DNA of 26,733 nucleotides from a virus. Both the position numbers and the translations under genes were made by a program. Shown here piece by piece: positions 2,625 through 8,450 of this stretch. The notes beneath the pieces are model-generated. The model saw only the letters and a program-made list of their open reading frames with translations, searched no databases and was not told the DNA's origin. Positions within the stretch are counted from its first letter, which is position 1. Each line of letters opens with the position of its first letter. The stretch lies in IMG/VR virus record IMGVR_UViG_3300004151_000038, positions 1-26,733 of that record. One strand, written 5' to 3'.

Positions 2625-3203
2625 TTACATTTTACTAATGTCTGTAAGCAGCTTTATAAGGCTATTACACAGCTTTTCTTTAATAAGTGGGTCTTCTATT
2701 AACTGAAGGTCTTGCTTATTGTCCTGAAAGCCCCATTCAAGTAAACATGATGGGTGCAGGGACATTAATACTGTAAAGTTTTCTTCATAGTCTGGGTCTT
2801 TGTCACTGTAGAAGTCTTTGCGCCATTGCATTTCAGGCACATCTTTTACCAGACCTTCATAAATATAGGTTGCAAAAGTGTCTGAAAGCGTTTGACCTTT
2901 ACAAGTCCAGATGCTTGCATTACGGGCGTTTGCCCATTCCCCACATTTTGCAGCGTTGTTGTGAAGACTGAAGACAAAAGCGGGGGCTTTTATTGCATTC
3001 ATTATACTTTTGCGCTGCAACAGCCCAATTTCAAAATTGGTTGTAACTGTTTCAACCACACAAACCCCATTATTTAGCAAGCCTTCTTTTACTTTTGCTA
3101 AAATTTCTCTACTCCAAATATACTCTTTGTGTTTTCCGTCGGGGCTGGCTTTCCCAGCTACGTTTGCACCATGTGCAGCATCTAAAATTATTGTTCTACT
3201 CAT
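2625..3203 (-). CDS. Endolysin: N-acetylmuramoyl-L-alanine amidase, zinc Amidase_3 type (192 aa)
   Basis: The protein cleaves the bond between MurNAc and L-Ala in peptidoglycan. The Amidase_3 pattern is complete. ILDAAHG supplies zinc ligand His11, KEYIW supplies Glu27, FSLHNNA supplies His81, and LLEWGF supplies the catalytic Glu156. The domain fills the whole chain, so there is no separate wall-binding domain and no signal peptide; export would need a holin. Its ATG overlaps the last codons of the upstream sigma gene by 8 bases (3196-3203), so the two are probably translationally coupled. The u-spanin candidate follows. This start is favoured because residue 2 leads straight into the first beta strand. 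Confidence 0.92.
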   Translation of the reverse strand: MSRTIILDAAHGANVAGKASPDGKHKEYIWSREILAKVKEGLLNNGVCVVETVTTNFEIGLLQRKSIMNAIKAPAFVFSLHNNAAKCGEWANARNASIWTCKGQTLSDTFATYIYEGLVKDVPEMQWRKDFYSDKDPDYEENFTVLMSLHPSCLLEWGFQDNKQDLQLIEDPLIKEKLCNSLIKLLTDISKM

Positions 3204-3693
3204 TTATTTCTTTGTATTTCTGTTGTATTCTATGTATTATTGTCTTTATATTACCTTCAGAAAGCCCCATTAATTCAGCAATTGCAGCGTATTTAAGACC
3301 CTGCATTTTATATTCAATAATTTGTTGTTGCTGGGGTGTAAGTGTTTTGTAAAAGTCTGTTGCTGGGGTGTCTTCTTTTTCAAATGCAGCATTGTAACAG
3401 ACCCCAGCCCCAAATTCACCAACAATGTCTGATGCAATTTCTGGTCTATTACTTTGAACCTTATAACGTCTGTATATATCAGTAACAGCACTTTTTATAC
3501 AAGTTCCAATAAACGCTTCAGGTGTGTAACTATCTTTTTTGCTGAAGTTCTGCCACAACTTAATATAAGTCAGCTGTACAACTTCTTCAACCTTTTGTGT
3601 TGAATGGGTTGTAAAGAACTTATATACATAGCTGTTGCATAGCTTGTTTATAAAAGCTTTGTGCTGTGTTATATAAGCGTCAAATTCAGTCAC
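3196..3693 (-). CDS. Phage ECF-like sigma-70 family factor (165 aa)
   Basis: Region 2 covers about residues 8-80. VEEVVQLTYIKLWQNF is the core-binding helix, and FIGTCIKSAVTDIYRRYK the -10-recognition end. Region 4 covers about 115-162, with LTPQQQQIIEYKMQG then the HTH YAAIAELMGLSEGNIKTIIH. The linker is short, as in ECF factors, and there is no region 1 or 3. The start is GTG at 3693. Ten bases upstream lies AAATATTTATTAATA, the same motif found before the virion genes, so the gene may activate its own transcription. It heads the endolysin-spanin unit, which suggests it turns on lysis and/or virion genes late in infection. Its role is inferred from family and context. Confidence 0.88.
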   Translation of the reverse strand: MTEFDAYITQHKAFINKLCNSYVYKFFTTHSTQKVEEVVQLTYIKLWQNFSKKDSYTPEAFIGTCIKSAVTDIYRRYKVQSNRPEIASDIVGEFGAGVCYNAAFEKEDTPATDFYKTLTPQQQQIIEYKMQGLKYAAIAELMGLSEGNIKTIIHRIQQKYKEINE

Positions 3694-3793: not shown

Positions 3794-5230
3794 TTACACC
3801 ATTGCCCCGTTAGAAACCTTGTATTCAAATAATTTGGGGTCTTTTAAAACGTAGTCTGGGAATTCATTTTTTATTGTTTCTTTTATTTTTTCTAATGAAT
3901 TTGAAGTTGCAATTATTCCCCTACCAATACAATAAGTAAACACCATTTCTTTTGTAATTTCAATTTTTGTTTCTTCTTCTTTGTATTCAAAGTTGTATTC
4001 ATTCCCATCTGTTGCAGTCTGGGTTGTTGCAAAGCTTTCAAATTTAAAATTGGGGACTGTTGTAAAATGGCTTTTAATAATGACTAAAGCCCTGTCTAAG
4101 TCTTCATTTTTAATTATCCAACTGTCATGTACAGTAACATTAAAAATGTCTTGTGCTGTCAAGTCGTTGCATATAACATCTAATACTTTGTGGCTTTCCA
4201 TTCTTTGAAGCATAATTGCAAATTGGTTATACCCATTTTTTGTTTTAAAAGCATTTACCCATTTATTAATAGCAGGGAATTCAGCAGCAAATACTTTCTT
4301 TTCCTTTAAATATGAAGAAGGCTTTGAAAATAGTACACACATCATTATTTTTTTAGCTTCTTTTCTGGTTAATTTTTCAGTTACAAAATTGTCATAGAAT
4401 AACCCCGATATAACCCAGCTATTAAACTTTTCAATTTCCTTTTTATCTGCTTCTTTTAATTCTTTTTCGCAAAATTCCCACACCTTAACTGCTTGTTTAT
4501 CAATGTCTATGGGGGTGTTTCTACTAACATTATGAGAGTAATATATAGAATTAATAATAAGAGACATAAAGAAAGGCTGTGAATTACTAATATCTATTTG
4601 GGTAAATTCCCCCTCATTACAGAATTTAATGTTGCTTTTTAAATTGGTTAAATTAGTGTCCAATCTAAAATTGGTTTTATTTCTTTTAAAATAAAGTCTG
4701 TTTTCTTTTATTTTGTCGATTAACTTATATTGTTGTATTCTTGCATTGATGTCTTCAAATTGTTGTACAATTGAAAAAGCTTTGTCTATGTCTATTCCCC
4801 TTACAAATTCAGTAAAGTAAGACTTCATTTTTTTAAACTGGTCTTTAGTTTCTTTCAGTCTGAATTTTTCTTTTTCAGAATTGAAGAAAGCAATTTTTTG
4901 TTTTAAAAAAGTAATGTTTTCAATTTCAATTTTTACAACGGGGGAATGTTTTTCTTCTCTTAATTTATAACCCCTTGTTTTTTCACCTTCAATGTAATTG
5001 TTATCTACATATATTATGTGACTGTTTACAAAGAATGAAATGTAACGTTTGTATTCATGTGTAATACCTTGTAATTTTCTGGCTGAAACACTTGTAAACC
5101 CGTTTTCATCTGTTGTAAAAGAAGTAAAATTTGAAAGAAGTTCTAATGCTATCTGTTTGTCTAAATAGTTCTGGCATTCAATTTTTTTCAAATGTTCTTC
5201 AGTTGTGTAATAATAAATTCCTTTTTTCAT
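3794..5230 (-). CDS. Single-subunit polymerase-like protein with Pol I/T7-type motifs A, B and C (478 aa)
   Basis: No standard label fits with certainty, but the C-terminal half shows the family A polymerase order. RLDTNLTNL (189-197) resembles the template-contact motif before the palm. FTQIDISNSQPFF (209-221) resembles motif A, with Asp213. R289-x3-K293-x3-M297-x3-F301 has the exact spacing of the O helix (motif B, R-x3-K-x3-F-x3-Y). FPAINKW follows, and VTVHDSWI (365-372, Asp369) resembles motif C; the HDS form is also that of T7 RNA polymerase. The first 170 residues are helical and charged, with no visible exonuclease. A replication or priming enzyme, or a template-directed RNA polymerase, are both possible. 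It is transcribed alone, away from the structured divergent region, and ends at a hairpin. Start: ATG at 5230, preceded by A/T-rich sequence. Confidence 0.7.
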   Translation of the reverse strand: MKKGIYYYTTEEHLKKIECQNYLDKQIALELLSNFTSFTTDENGFTSVSARKLQGITHEYKRYISFFVNSHIIYVDNNYIEGEKTRGYKLREEKHSPVVKIEIENITFLKQKIAFFNSEKEKFRLKETKDQFKKMKSYFTEFVRGIDIDKAFSIVQQFEDINARIQQYKLIDKIKENRLYFKRNKTNFRLDTNLTNLKSNIKFCNEGEFTQIDISNSQPFFMSLIINSIYYSHNVSRNTPIDIDKQAVKVWEFCEKELKEADKKEIEKFNSWVISGLFYDNFVTEKLTRKEAKKIMMCVLFSKPSSYLKEKKVFAAEFPAINKWVNAFKTKNGYNQFAIMLQRMESHKVLDVICNDLTAQDIFNVTVHDSWIIKNEDLDRALVIIKSHFTTVPNFKFESFATTQTATDGNEYNFEYKEEETKIEITKEMVFTYCIGRGIIATSNSLEKIKETIKNEFPDYVLKDPKLFEYKVSNGAMV

Positions 5231-5260
5231 AGCTCTATATTAAATTTTAGCTCTAATAAA

Positions 5261-5324
5261 GTGTGGGGAAAAGGGAGCTAAGAACCTTTTTCAACGGGCA
5301 ATTACCCCCGTCTATTCCCCACAC
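5261..5324 (-). ncRNA. Compact three-way-junction element upstream of the polymerase-like gene
   Basis: Three nested perfect stems fit in 64 bases. The outer stem is GTGTGGGG (5261-5268) with CCCCACAC (5317-5324). The second is AAAAGG (5269-5274) with CCTTTT (5285-5290). The third is ACGGG (5294-5298) with CCCGT (5307-5311). Loops are 10 and 8 bases and junction linkers are 0, 3 and 5. It ends 30 bases before the 478-aa gene, so on the minus strand it would be a structured 5' leader (riboswitch-like, or autoregulatory by the encoded protein). As DNA it could equally be an origin or cruciform. It is unusually GC-rich for the region. No known RNA family was recognised. Confidence 0.5.
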
Positions 5325-5352
5325 ATAAATAAATAGTAAAATAATTTTTTTG

Positions 5353-5396
5353 TTTCAAGAGTTTTTGAAATTATTTTTTGCGTTTTTCGCAAAACG
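5353..5396. promoter_or_regulatory. Two short inverted repeats in the divergent region
   Basis: TTTCAA (5353-5358) pairs with TTGAAA (5365-5370) over a 6-base spacer. CGTTTT (5381-5386) pairs with AAAACG (5391-5396) over TCGC. Both lie in the A/T-rich divergent control region and could be operators or part of an origin. Confidence 0.4.
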
Positions 5397-5421
5397 TCCT
5401 AAAATTCAAAAATTTAGGACG
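5395..5421. promoter_or_regulatory. Inverted repeat CGTCCTAAA-n9-TTTAGGACG (operator candidate)
   Basis: Perfect 9-bp arms at 5395-5403 and 5413-5421 are separated by nine bases, so the centres are about 18 bases apart. This is a typical dimer-binding operator layout. It lies about 90 bases before the nuclease start in the divergent region. Confidence 0.5.
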
Positions 5422-5430
5422 ATTTATTTT

Positions 5431-5446
5431 GTTAAATATATTTAAC
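5431..5446. promoter_or_regulatory. Perfect 16-bp palindrome GTTAAATATATTTAAC
   Basis: The sequence equals its own reverse complement with no spacer. It lies ten bases after the 5395-5421 inverted repeat, between the divergent transcription units. It is a repressor or initiator site candidate. Confidence 0.5.
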
Positions 5447-5489
5447 ATTATTTTTTTCCTAATAAACTGTCGTTTTTATTTTTTCAAAC

Positions 5490-5502
5490 TATTTATAAGA
5501 AA
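5490..5502 (+). promoter_or_regulatory. Promoter-like motif TATTTATAAGAAA
   Basis: ACTATTTATAAGAAA lies just upstream of the nuclease gene; the core ends 12 bases before the ATG at 5510. The same 15 bases recur before the gene at 6883. Confidence 0.5.
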
Positions 5503-5509
5503 ATGAGTG

Positions 5510-6088
5510 ATGAACAATACAGAATTCAACGAACATCTACAGTTTGCAGCCAACAACGAAAATTTTATAAGTAATGTGCTTTGGGGCTGGGGTTATAGCG
5601 CTGTTAGCAAAAGTGACATTGCATGTTATGAACCAATGAAGTTTGATTTATTGGTTTTCAACGAAAAAAAACAAACCTACTTTTCAGCTGAATGCAAAAG
5701 AGACGCTTTAGCACATTTAACGGGCAACCTTGCTGTTGAATTTGAAAGCAACGAAAAACCCAGCGGAATAAGTGTAAGCAATTCACATTTTTACTTCTTC
5801 ACATGTGATAATGTGAAGTATAACAACGACTTTACAACTGTTGATATTAGCACTTGTGATGTGTATATTTTAAATACAAATGATTTAAAACAACTTGTAA
5901 CGGGCTGCAAAGTGGTTGAAGGGGGTTACAATAACCTTTCAAAATTTTATTTACTGCCAATTTCAAAAATAAACCAGAAAGCAAAAAAATATTCATTCAC
6001 CTATAACTTTGTCTGGGACACAGATTTAGAATTTTATCAGAAAAATATTTTACCAAAAGCACAAACCAAATTTAAAAAATATGAATAA
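5510..6088 (+). CDS. PD-(D/E)XK superfamily nuclease (192 aa)
   Basis: The fold signature is visible near the middle. MKFDLLVF carries Asp46, SAECKRD carries the Glu61-x-Lys63 pair, and GNLAVEFE carries Glu77, followed by PSGISVS and the hydrophobic strand HFYFFT. This order (D, ExK, then E and S/T-G-I) is that of small phage nucleases related to Holliday-junction and restriction endonucleases. Its last codons overlap the methyltransferase gene by 8 bases (6081-6088), so the two are probably coupled. Possible roles are restriction partner of that methylase, recombination or resolution nuclease, or host DNA degradation. The start was set at ATG 5510; an in-frame GTG lies one codon upstream (5507). 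The ATG at 5503 is in another frame. Confidence 0.7.
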   Translation: MNNTEFNEHLQFAANNENFISNVLWGWGYSAVSKSDIACYEPMKFDLLVFNEKKQTYFSAECKRDALAHLTGNLAVEFESNEKPSGISVSNSHFYFFTCDNVKYNNDFTTVDISTCDVYILNTNDLKQLVTGCKVVEGGYNNLSKFYLLPISKINQKAKKYSFTYNFVWDTDLEFYQKNILPKAQTKFKKYE

Positions 6089-7558: not shown

Positions 7559-7942
7559 ATGAAAAATTATAACTGGAATAAAAACAGCATTGAATTCAAA
7601 GCTGCAACTAAGCTTCAAAAGGGCTGGGGCTGGCTTGAAGACTACCAAAATGACCACAATACACTGTGCATTTTGAATGATGAAGAATTAACCAATATTA
7701 CTACACATTTACTTATACAACGGAATAAGTTAACTACACTGATTAACAAGCTAATTAAGGACTTTACAAAAGAAACATTTTTTGGAATAGATACAATAAT
7801 TAGGGGCTTAATTTACATTAACCGATTAAGCGAAAACATAGCGCTAATGCTCGATGAAGCACTTTTTAGAACATTAAAAAATATAAATATAAATGATACT
7901 AACAGCCCAAACAATTCAACAGATAGCAGCACAAGTTTATAA
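7559..7942 (+). CDS. Hypothetical protein (127 aa)
   Basis: This is an unrecognised, mostly helical protein. The N-terminus, MKNYNWNKNSIEFKAATKLQ, is followed by GWGWLEDYQND and a long helical region (about 40-110). The C-terminal tail is rich in Asn, Ser and Thr and looks disordered. Start was set at ATG 7559; an in-frame TTG two codons upstream (7553) is less likely. The 3' end overlaps the sigma-like gene that follows by 50 bases. It follows the 7494-7541 stem-loop rather than a promoter-like motif, so it is probably read through from upstream. Confidence 0.7.
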   Translation: MKNYNWNKNSIEFKAATKLQKGWGWLEDYQNDHNTLCILNDEELTNITTHLLIQRNKLTTLINKLIKDFTKETFFGIDTIIRGLIYINRLSENIALMLDEALFRTLKNININDTNSPNNSTDSSTSL

Positions 7943-8450
7943 TGAAAATGACCTATGGGATATTGCTAAACACTATTCCAAATGCGACTTTGAAGACATT
8001 ATACATGAAGTCATTTTGCAAATTTATACAATGTCACCCCAAAAAGTAAAACAACTTTATAAAATGGGTGTGTTGAAGTACTATATAATTTACATTATCA
8101 AAACTTCAGCAACAAGCCCCAGCAGCGGCTTTCAAAAAAAATATTATAGAAATATTGAAACGAAAGACCAGCTGCATAAATTTAAAGATGCTGCATTTGA
8201 AGAAAAAACTATTGAAGAAAGGCAAATTGAAGAAGACTTTTATAATAAGGCTGTTGCAGCCTGCACAGGGAGCGAAAAAGACAAAAGAAAACAATATATT
8301 TTAAGAACCATTTTTGAATTATACTTTGAAAATAATTTATCTATTCGACAAATTGCAAAGTGTTCAAAATTAAGTACCAGTACGGTTTATAACTATTTGA
8401 AAGTAATAAAAGAAAACATCAAAAATTCAATTACAAATGATAACAATTAA
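7893..8450 (+). CDS. Second sigma-70-like factor (185 aa)
   Basis: Residues about 20-85 resemble sigma region 2 in divergent phage factors. CDFEDIIHEVILQIYTM gives the core-binding-type helix, then YIIYIIKTSATSPSSGFQKK the end that would meet the -10 element. A charged linker follows. Residues about 135-178 form a region 4-type HTH: ILRTIFELYFENNLSIRQIA then KLSTSTVYNYLKVIKENI. Similarity to standard ECF factors is weak, so it could instead be a terminase-small-like or other HTH regulator. It overlaps the genes on both sides (50 and 14 bases), so it belongs to a tightly packed unit just before the packaging genes. A role as the middle- or late-gene sigma factor is inferred. Confidence 0.6.
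   Translation: MILTAQTIQQIAAQVYNENDLWDIAKHYSKCDFEDIIHEVILQIYTMSPQKVKQLYKMGVLKYYIIYIIKTSATSPSSGFQKKYYRNIETKDQLHKFKDAAFEEKTIEERQIEEDFYNKAVAACTGSEKDKRKQYILRTIFELYFENNLSIRQIAKCSKLSTSTVYNYLKVIKENIKNSITNDNN

Follow-up and report, generated by a model that had tools for sequence, protein, structure and literature searches.

An apparently undescribed family of minimal superfamily A-type polymerases in small phages, huge phages and integrative elements of Bacteroidota

Family A polymerases are the ancestors of repair DNA polymerases, of the T7 and mitochondrial RNA polymerases and of the primase of SCC elements. That primase, CcPol with its partner MP, is proven to make DNA primers de novo (Rice 2023, PMC10061031), and CcPol resembles Pol I so closely that housekeeping Pol I comes up when CcPol is used as a search query (PMC10061031). 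The TV-Pols have been predicted to be primase-polymerases as well (Iyer et al. 2008, PMC2579912; PMC10061031). A further set of such enzymes, divPolA2, has been described in barbaviruses, ICP1 and phages of Vibrio and Aeromonas (Yutin et al. 2024, PMC11348598). The neighbours of its genes vary, and the genes lie apart from the replication cluster (PMC11348598); Yutin et al. left both repair synthesis and RNA polymerase activity open as its role (PMC11348598).

The window analysed here is a 26,733-base IMG/VR virus record, taken at its full length. On its minus strand, positions 3794-5230 form an open reading frame with an ATG start and 478 codons, whose 478-aa product had been read in a preliminary description as a single-subunit polymerase-like protein. 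The features of this locus are as follows, with conservation given as counts among 94 non-redundant members of the family to which the protein belongs.

3794-5230, minus strand: 478-aa minimal family A-like polymerase, with an N-terminal helical/beta domain of ~180 residues, palm and fingers, and a C-terminal tail
4643-4666, minus strand: template-strand arginine motif R189-L-D-T-N-L-T-N; family consensus GR-x-H-T-N-x-T, R189 in 94/94
4568-4597, minus strand: motif A, IDISNSQPFF (residues 212-221), with catalytic D213 and sugar-gate position Q218, both 94/94; fold match to the Pol I palm
4328-4366, minus strand: motif B/O-helix, R289-x3-K293-x3-M297-x3-F301; K293 in 94/94, R or K at 289 in 93/94, helix 289-301 in the AlphaFold model
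4118-4138, minus strand: motif C, V-T-V-H368-D369-S370-W; D369 in 94/94, H368 in 88/94, S370 in 89/94
5231-5506, no strand: AT-rich intergenic region with many hairpins, separating the polymerase from the divergent gene, 276 bases, 26% GC; candidate origin or priming site
3196-3693, minus strand: sigma-70-like factor gene, 100 bp downstream of the polymerase; Pfam Sigma70_r2 and r4
5507-6088, plus strand: divergent first gene, 193 aa, nuclease-like by eye (AECKRDA); no Pfam match

The motifs IDISNSQPFF, R289-x3-K293-x3-M297-x3-F301 and VTVHDSW were all found in the order A, B, C that the preliminary description had claimed, and its numbering of Asp213, Lys293 and Asp369 is correct on the 478-aa translation. 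The spacing that it had called right for this type of enzyme was likewise borne out, with 8 residues from K293 to F301, as from K631 to Y639 in T7 RNAP and from K522 to Y530 in T7 DNAP. It had also pointed to the HDS form of motif C as that of T7 RNAP, which does have HDS at 811-813, and to the lack of an exonuclease; neither an exonuclease nor any other recognised extra domain was found in the protein. Nine residues are invariant in all 94 non-redundant members (R189, D213, S217, Q218, Y279, K293, F314, E345 and D369), and N216, P219, K329 and Q342 are each present in 93. Eight positions after the O-helix lysine (K+8) the same members have Phe in 83 cases and Tyr in 11, the window protein having F301. 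As the catalytic set is conserved across homologues, these motifs are beyond chance, and the protein is a real superfamily A-type polymerase relative which automated annotation misses.

Single-sequence searches against Pfam, PHROGs and the PDB, together with viral and genome scans, gave nothing or the chance matches ABCA1 R1 and RegB; a match to CREB-binding protein in a later search was also due to chance. By tblastn, homologues ~25-29% identical were found in uncultured mega phages (lowest E 7e-11), whose genomes of 595-735 kb are among the largest known for phages, and another on a Hymenobacter plasmid (E 2e-18). The family was opened up by a motif A pattern built from a seven-member alignment, with which 80 IMG/VR loci were recovered. 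Patterns from a larger alignment added 40 bacterial loci, mostly in Bacteroidota with a few in Planctomycetes and Verrucomicrobia-type bins. Within a sample of 395 genomes from the Bacteroidota phylum, 21 gave matches, of which ~15 were strong. No model in Pfam, PHROGs or NCBIfam covers this family, which is why annotators have missed it. In particular, PF00476 (DNA_pol_A) matched neither the window protein nor seven family members, and it was silent throughout 14 of 16 records that carry the gene.

We call this group the NSQP/HDS family. It is apparently undescribed: no paper describing it was found in a literature search that left subscription journals and preprints mostly outside. It is a variety of the minimal superfamily A polymerases known from mobile elements, and its distribution is both wide and unexpected. 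As a deeply conserved, unnamed branch found in phages of 27 kb and of 735 kb as well as in defence islands of bacteria, it offers a natural set for asking which residues set DNA versus RNA synthesis and the need for a primer, and a handle on how replication starts in the small phages and satellite-like islands of Bacteroidota, which is poorly known.

AlphaFold models were obtained for the window protein (pLDDT 79.9) and for a 397-aa family representative (pLDDT 90.9). Foldseek searches of the PDB with the window model were led by Pol theta, Bst Pol I, Taq and Klenow (E 1e-3 to 5e-3, probability ~1.0), none reaching E 0.001 despite that probability. With the family representative, the apicoplast polymerase and mycobacterial Pol I were best and 10 matches had E <1e-3; the mitochondrial RNA polymerase 3spa (E 0.004, probability 0.99) followed behind the family A DNA polymerases. 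Whole-chain TM-scores to the PDB matches were low (~0.2-0.44), so the agreement in fold concerns the catalytic core, and the N-terminal domain differs. Among viral structures, the best match (TM 0.86) was a 403-aa protein of an uncultured marine phage that is annotated 'putative DNA polymerase I', with divPolA2-type proteins of Aeromonas and Rheinheimera phages ranking lower. The structure comparison proposed in the preliminary description thus returned a predicted right-hand palm/fingers arrangement with a family A core match. Conservation, the AlphaFold models and Foldseek all back its view of a Pol I/T7-type palm, and the predicted models support a right-hand palm/fingers fold of superfamily A for the 478-aa protein.

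We compared the family with its described relatives. divPolA2 proteins are similar in being ~430-aa enzymes with no exonuclease and with an unrelated N-terminal domain replacing the thumb, and in having GR...R...L-I-D-G/E followed by a motif A of the form D-x4-x-P. They differ in the motif A itself (DFKALHP or DYSQLWP, versus DIxNSQP in the family), in a motif C that is HDS, HDA, FDE or YDE, and in their hosts, divPolA2 being found in gammaproteobacterial phages. An hhalign comparison with divPolA2 gave E 6.5e-16 and probability 98.6 over 192 columns, covering the palm only (reversed control 0.76). The other profile comparisons, whose E-values are likewise single-comparison values to be read against reversed controls of 0.28-0.76, gave 1.3e-4 for the Pol A pair found in huge phages, a weak 0.0095 for Ma-LMM01 MAP_030 (the single putative TV-Pol compared), 0.012 for T7 DNAP and 0.086 for T7 RNAP; the two T7 comparisons are not decisive, since these families also miss each other (E 0.085). 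In a core tree of 200 columns, built from a remote alignment and unrooted, the window protein grouped with L008 (support 0.98), and with L009, the Flavobacterium-type L092 and Aestuariivivens L094 (1.0). A long internal branch in this tree parts the NSQP family from all seven divPolA2 sequences. Membership in divPolA2 was accordingly narrowed to a sister relationship, the family falling outside the clade of those seven. Provisionally, given the remote alignment and the unrooted tree, these sequence comparisons place NSQP/HDS as a sister of divPolA2 outside its described set.

The family shares with TV-Pol and CcPol the character of a minimal superfamily A polymerase of viruses and mobile elements, together with the template arginine, the two catalytic aspartates and RxxxK. 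It differs from TV-Pols in context: no D5-like helicase, nor the serine resolvase that accompanies TV-PolN, was seen around the NSQP gene, whose neighbours are a tyrosine integrase, AAA_24 and DUF3871, or phage genes. In contrast to CcPol with its closeness to Pol I, no member tested reaches a Pfam polymerase model. MAP_030 of Microcystis phage Ma-LMM01 (L134:22746-24266, minus strand) probably corresponds to the TV-Pol that Iyer et al. mention for this phage; where its motif C seems to lie it has IHNS, Asn standing in for Asp. With DNA polymerase I and T7 DNA polymerase (PF00476) the family has in common the palm, the O-helix RxxxK-x7-[YF]G, the order of the motifs and Foldseek probabilities of ~1.0, whereas it lacks the exonuclease, has HDS in place of HDE and gives no significant Pfam match. 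The distance from the O-helix Lys to the motif C Asp is also shorter, at 73-105 residues (76 in the window) against 132 in T7 DNAP.

Terminase (Pfam) and tail, capsid and portal-type genes (by eye) lie on the plus strand of the window, and a shorter minus-strand block begins with the polymerase and continues with the sigma-70-like factor, an amidase, a spanin-like gene and small genes. The polymerase had been described as transcribed alone; this is not supported, as 100 bp separate it from the sigma-70-like gene at 3196-3693, which lies downstream on that strand, and this gap holds no terminator-like site. The absence of a linked helicase or primase was confirmed by model searches of the window, which found neither gene. 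A related genome, G001 (28,080 bases), has the same layout and is probably complete, given its exact terminal repeats of 141 bases. Its polymerase is 54% identical to that of the window over 411 aa, compared with 23-36% for the shared structural proteins, and is the best-conserved protein common to the two. More distant copies occur in G003 and G002 (L073, L009). Models for Pol B, DnaG-type primase and DnaB helicase found no match in the window, G001 or G003, and no Pol A was found in G001, G002 or G003; in G001 the NSQP gene is the sole polymerase-like gene. The window virus is a small virus of Bacteroidota-type bacteria whose NSQP/HDS gene is its only recognisable copying enzyme. By eye, a gene of 156-158 aa resembling the divergent 193-aa gene of the window is the first divergent gene in G001/L008, and is divergently placed in L009.

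The structured region noted beside the gene was also borne out: as single-stranded DNA, 5231-5506 folds with a z of -5.1 against shuffles. In a comparison of 106 segments along the phage it comes first for structure (z -5.8), and it contains exact stems, for example GTGTGGGGAA/TTCCCCACAC. In G001 the counterpart region has a z of -6.6 and takes second and fourth place among 112 segments. The region would suit a priming or initiation site; a regulatory function is also possible.

These data allow us to propose a role, to which we give about an even chance: that the protein is a minimal family A-type polymerase which makes DNA and most likely starts the replication of small phages and mobile elements. 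In this model the hairpin-rich stretch upstream of the gene would, when single-stranded or melted, be bound by the N-terminal domain; the palm (D213, D369) and the fingers lysine (K293) would then synthesise a short DNA primer or the start of a leading strand, from which the helicase and Pol III of the host would carry on. Huge phages that encode DnaB together with PolB or Pol III may use the protein as an accessory enzyme for priming or repair. We infer DNA synthesis, primer-independent start, site of action and hand-over to the host from the invariant catalytic set, the family A fold matches, the Gln at the sugar gate and the mostly Tyr/Phe K+4; from the place of the gene as the sole, best-conserved replication-like gene of small phages; from its integrase and AAA_24 neighbours and its ATGA overlap with a DNA_pol_A gene in two huge phages; and from the structured upstream region in both the window and G001. 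CcPol-MP of SCC elements and the TV-Pol predictions serve as precedents (PMC10061031, PMC2579912). Against this stand the HDS motif C and the window's own Met at K+4, both as in T7 RNAP; moreover, no neighbour of the window gene was recognised as an SSB-like partner such as CcPol has in MP. The structured intergenic region may also serve regulation rather than replication. Of the three roles offered in the preliminary description, that of a primase-polymerase or plasmid-style replicase fits best, and that of a second transcription enzyme is possible and weaker.

In an alternative that we consider unlikely, the protein is an accessory DNA polymerase of repair or recombination, which would work with the AAA_24 (Sak4/RecA-like) ATPase in gap filling or in the extension of recombination intermediates. 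Most jumbo and mega phages with the NSQP gene also carry Pol B, or Pol III (two of them), as well as DnaB. This co-occurrence, the AAA_24 neighbour in integrative elements and the variable setting of sister divPolA2 away from the replication cluster (PMC11348598), for which Yutin et al. suggested such a role (PMC11348598), speak for this alternative. The small phages, however, have no other recognisable replication gene, and a phage of 27-28 kb is unlikely to keep a repair enzyme as its one, best-conserved enzyme. In two huge phages (LR756511 and IMG/VR record G007) the NSQP gene overlaps a ~428-aa DNA_pol_A-domain gene by the four bases ATGA. These pairs are located as follows.

L002, 4794-7240: ATGA-overlapping NSQP and DNA_pol_A genes; Pol III alpha elsewhere in the same genome
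L010, 9842-12312: ATGA-overlapping NSQP and DNA_pol_A genes; Pol III alpha elsewhere in the same genome

We also considered the NSQP protein as the missing primase of the mega phages. The DnaG N-terminal and zinc-ribbon models mostly fail, but Toprim_2 matches in 7 of 16 records weakened this idea; as many huge phages with a copy have such a Toprim (DnaG-like) candidate, a primase is not obviously missing in them, which counts against our preferred primase-polymerase reading. At the jumbo phage loci (L006, L004 and ~30 others), two conserved genes with no Pfam match accompany the polymerase, one of ~180 aa close downstream (34 loci) and one of ~440 aa upstream (33 loci).

Given its T7 RNAP-like motif C, the protein could instead be a minimal RNA polymerase of the single-subunit type, for which a promoter within the structured region would drive transcription of part of the phage genome. 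Besides the HDS motif, the Foldseek match to 3spa (E 0.004, probability 0.99) and an adjoining sigma-factor gene suggestive of a transcription programme favour this, and the idea was already raised for divPolA2 (PMC11348598). We nevertheless judge it improbable. HDS alone is no marker of RNA polymerases, as VHDS is also found in some divPolA2 proteins. The sugar-gate position (motif A Asp +5) is Gln in 94/94 family members, Glu in T7 DNAP and Gly in T7 RNAP, and K+4 is Tyr or Phe in 82/94, Tyr in T7 DNAP and Met in T7 RNAP; the window protein itself has Met (M297), like T7 RNAP. In Pol I-type enzymes a bulky residue at the sugar gate shuts out ribonucleotides. The family as a whole does not show the single-subunit RNA polymerase signature of a Gly sugar gate, Met at K+4 and Tyr at K+8; its protein is about half the length of the T7-like enzymes (PF00940), with which it shares the K-to-Y/F spacing of 8, and has no recognised promoter-binding N-terminal domain. 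Both PDB fold searches rank DNA polymerases above RNA polymerases, the profile match is better to PolA (E 1.3e-4) than to T7 RNAP (0.086), and the association with integrases also argues against transcription. PF00940 itself gave no match, in a search that is uninformative because its controls were equally silent. Judging from these residues, DNA rather than RNA synthesis is favoured by the Gln sugar gate and the usually aromatic K+4.

In bacteria, the gene is adjoined by a tyrosine integrase in 23 of 40 loci, and in 10 of the 40 an AAA_24 (Sak4/RecA-like) ATPase and DUF3871 lie nearby. A recurring integrative element of Flavobacteriia and their relatives, with variable cargo, was seen at L092, L095, L097, L099-L101, L103, L106, L111, L112 and L123; it consists of the tyrosine integrase, the NSQP polymerase, the AAA_24 ATPase and DUF3871, the last two missing in L092. 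PADLOC models identified CBASS (phospholipase, cyclase, E2), a Lamassu LmuB-like protein, MzaC and PDC-M60A as cargo. That the polymerase serves defence or conflict between elements, for instance through unusual DNA, and travels with defence islands is very improbable: CBASS, Lamassu-like and other defence genes in the bacterial elements speak for it, but the gene sits at the mobility end beside the integrase, is kept across differing cargo and in phages, and has sister families that are replication or accessory enzymes. The Hymenobacter plasmid encodes its own Rep_3 initiator, a point against the primase-polymerase role. Small neighbours at L103:11634-11981, L129:6178-6537 and L008:11804-12292 matched no Pfam family.

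Taking the primase-polymerase reading further, we tentatively suggest, at somewhat less than an even chance, that the family is an independent, further type of primase-polymerase whose core is that of Pol I. With this single gene, 27-28 kb phages and defence-carrying integrative elements of Bacteroidota would start their replication at a hairpin-rich origin next to the gene itself, and mega phages would have captured it.

Two minor features of the window were also observed. A second, weaker sigma/HTH protein is encoded at 7893-8450. At positions 1-59 of the plus strand lies a tRNA-like sequence truncated at its 5' end (Rfam RF00005, 30.4 bits, gathering threshold 29); it may be the trace of an attachment site, or of a repeated tRNA at which the contig broke off.
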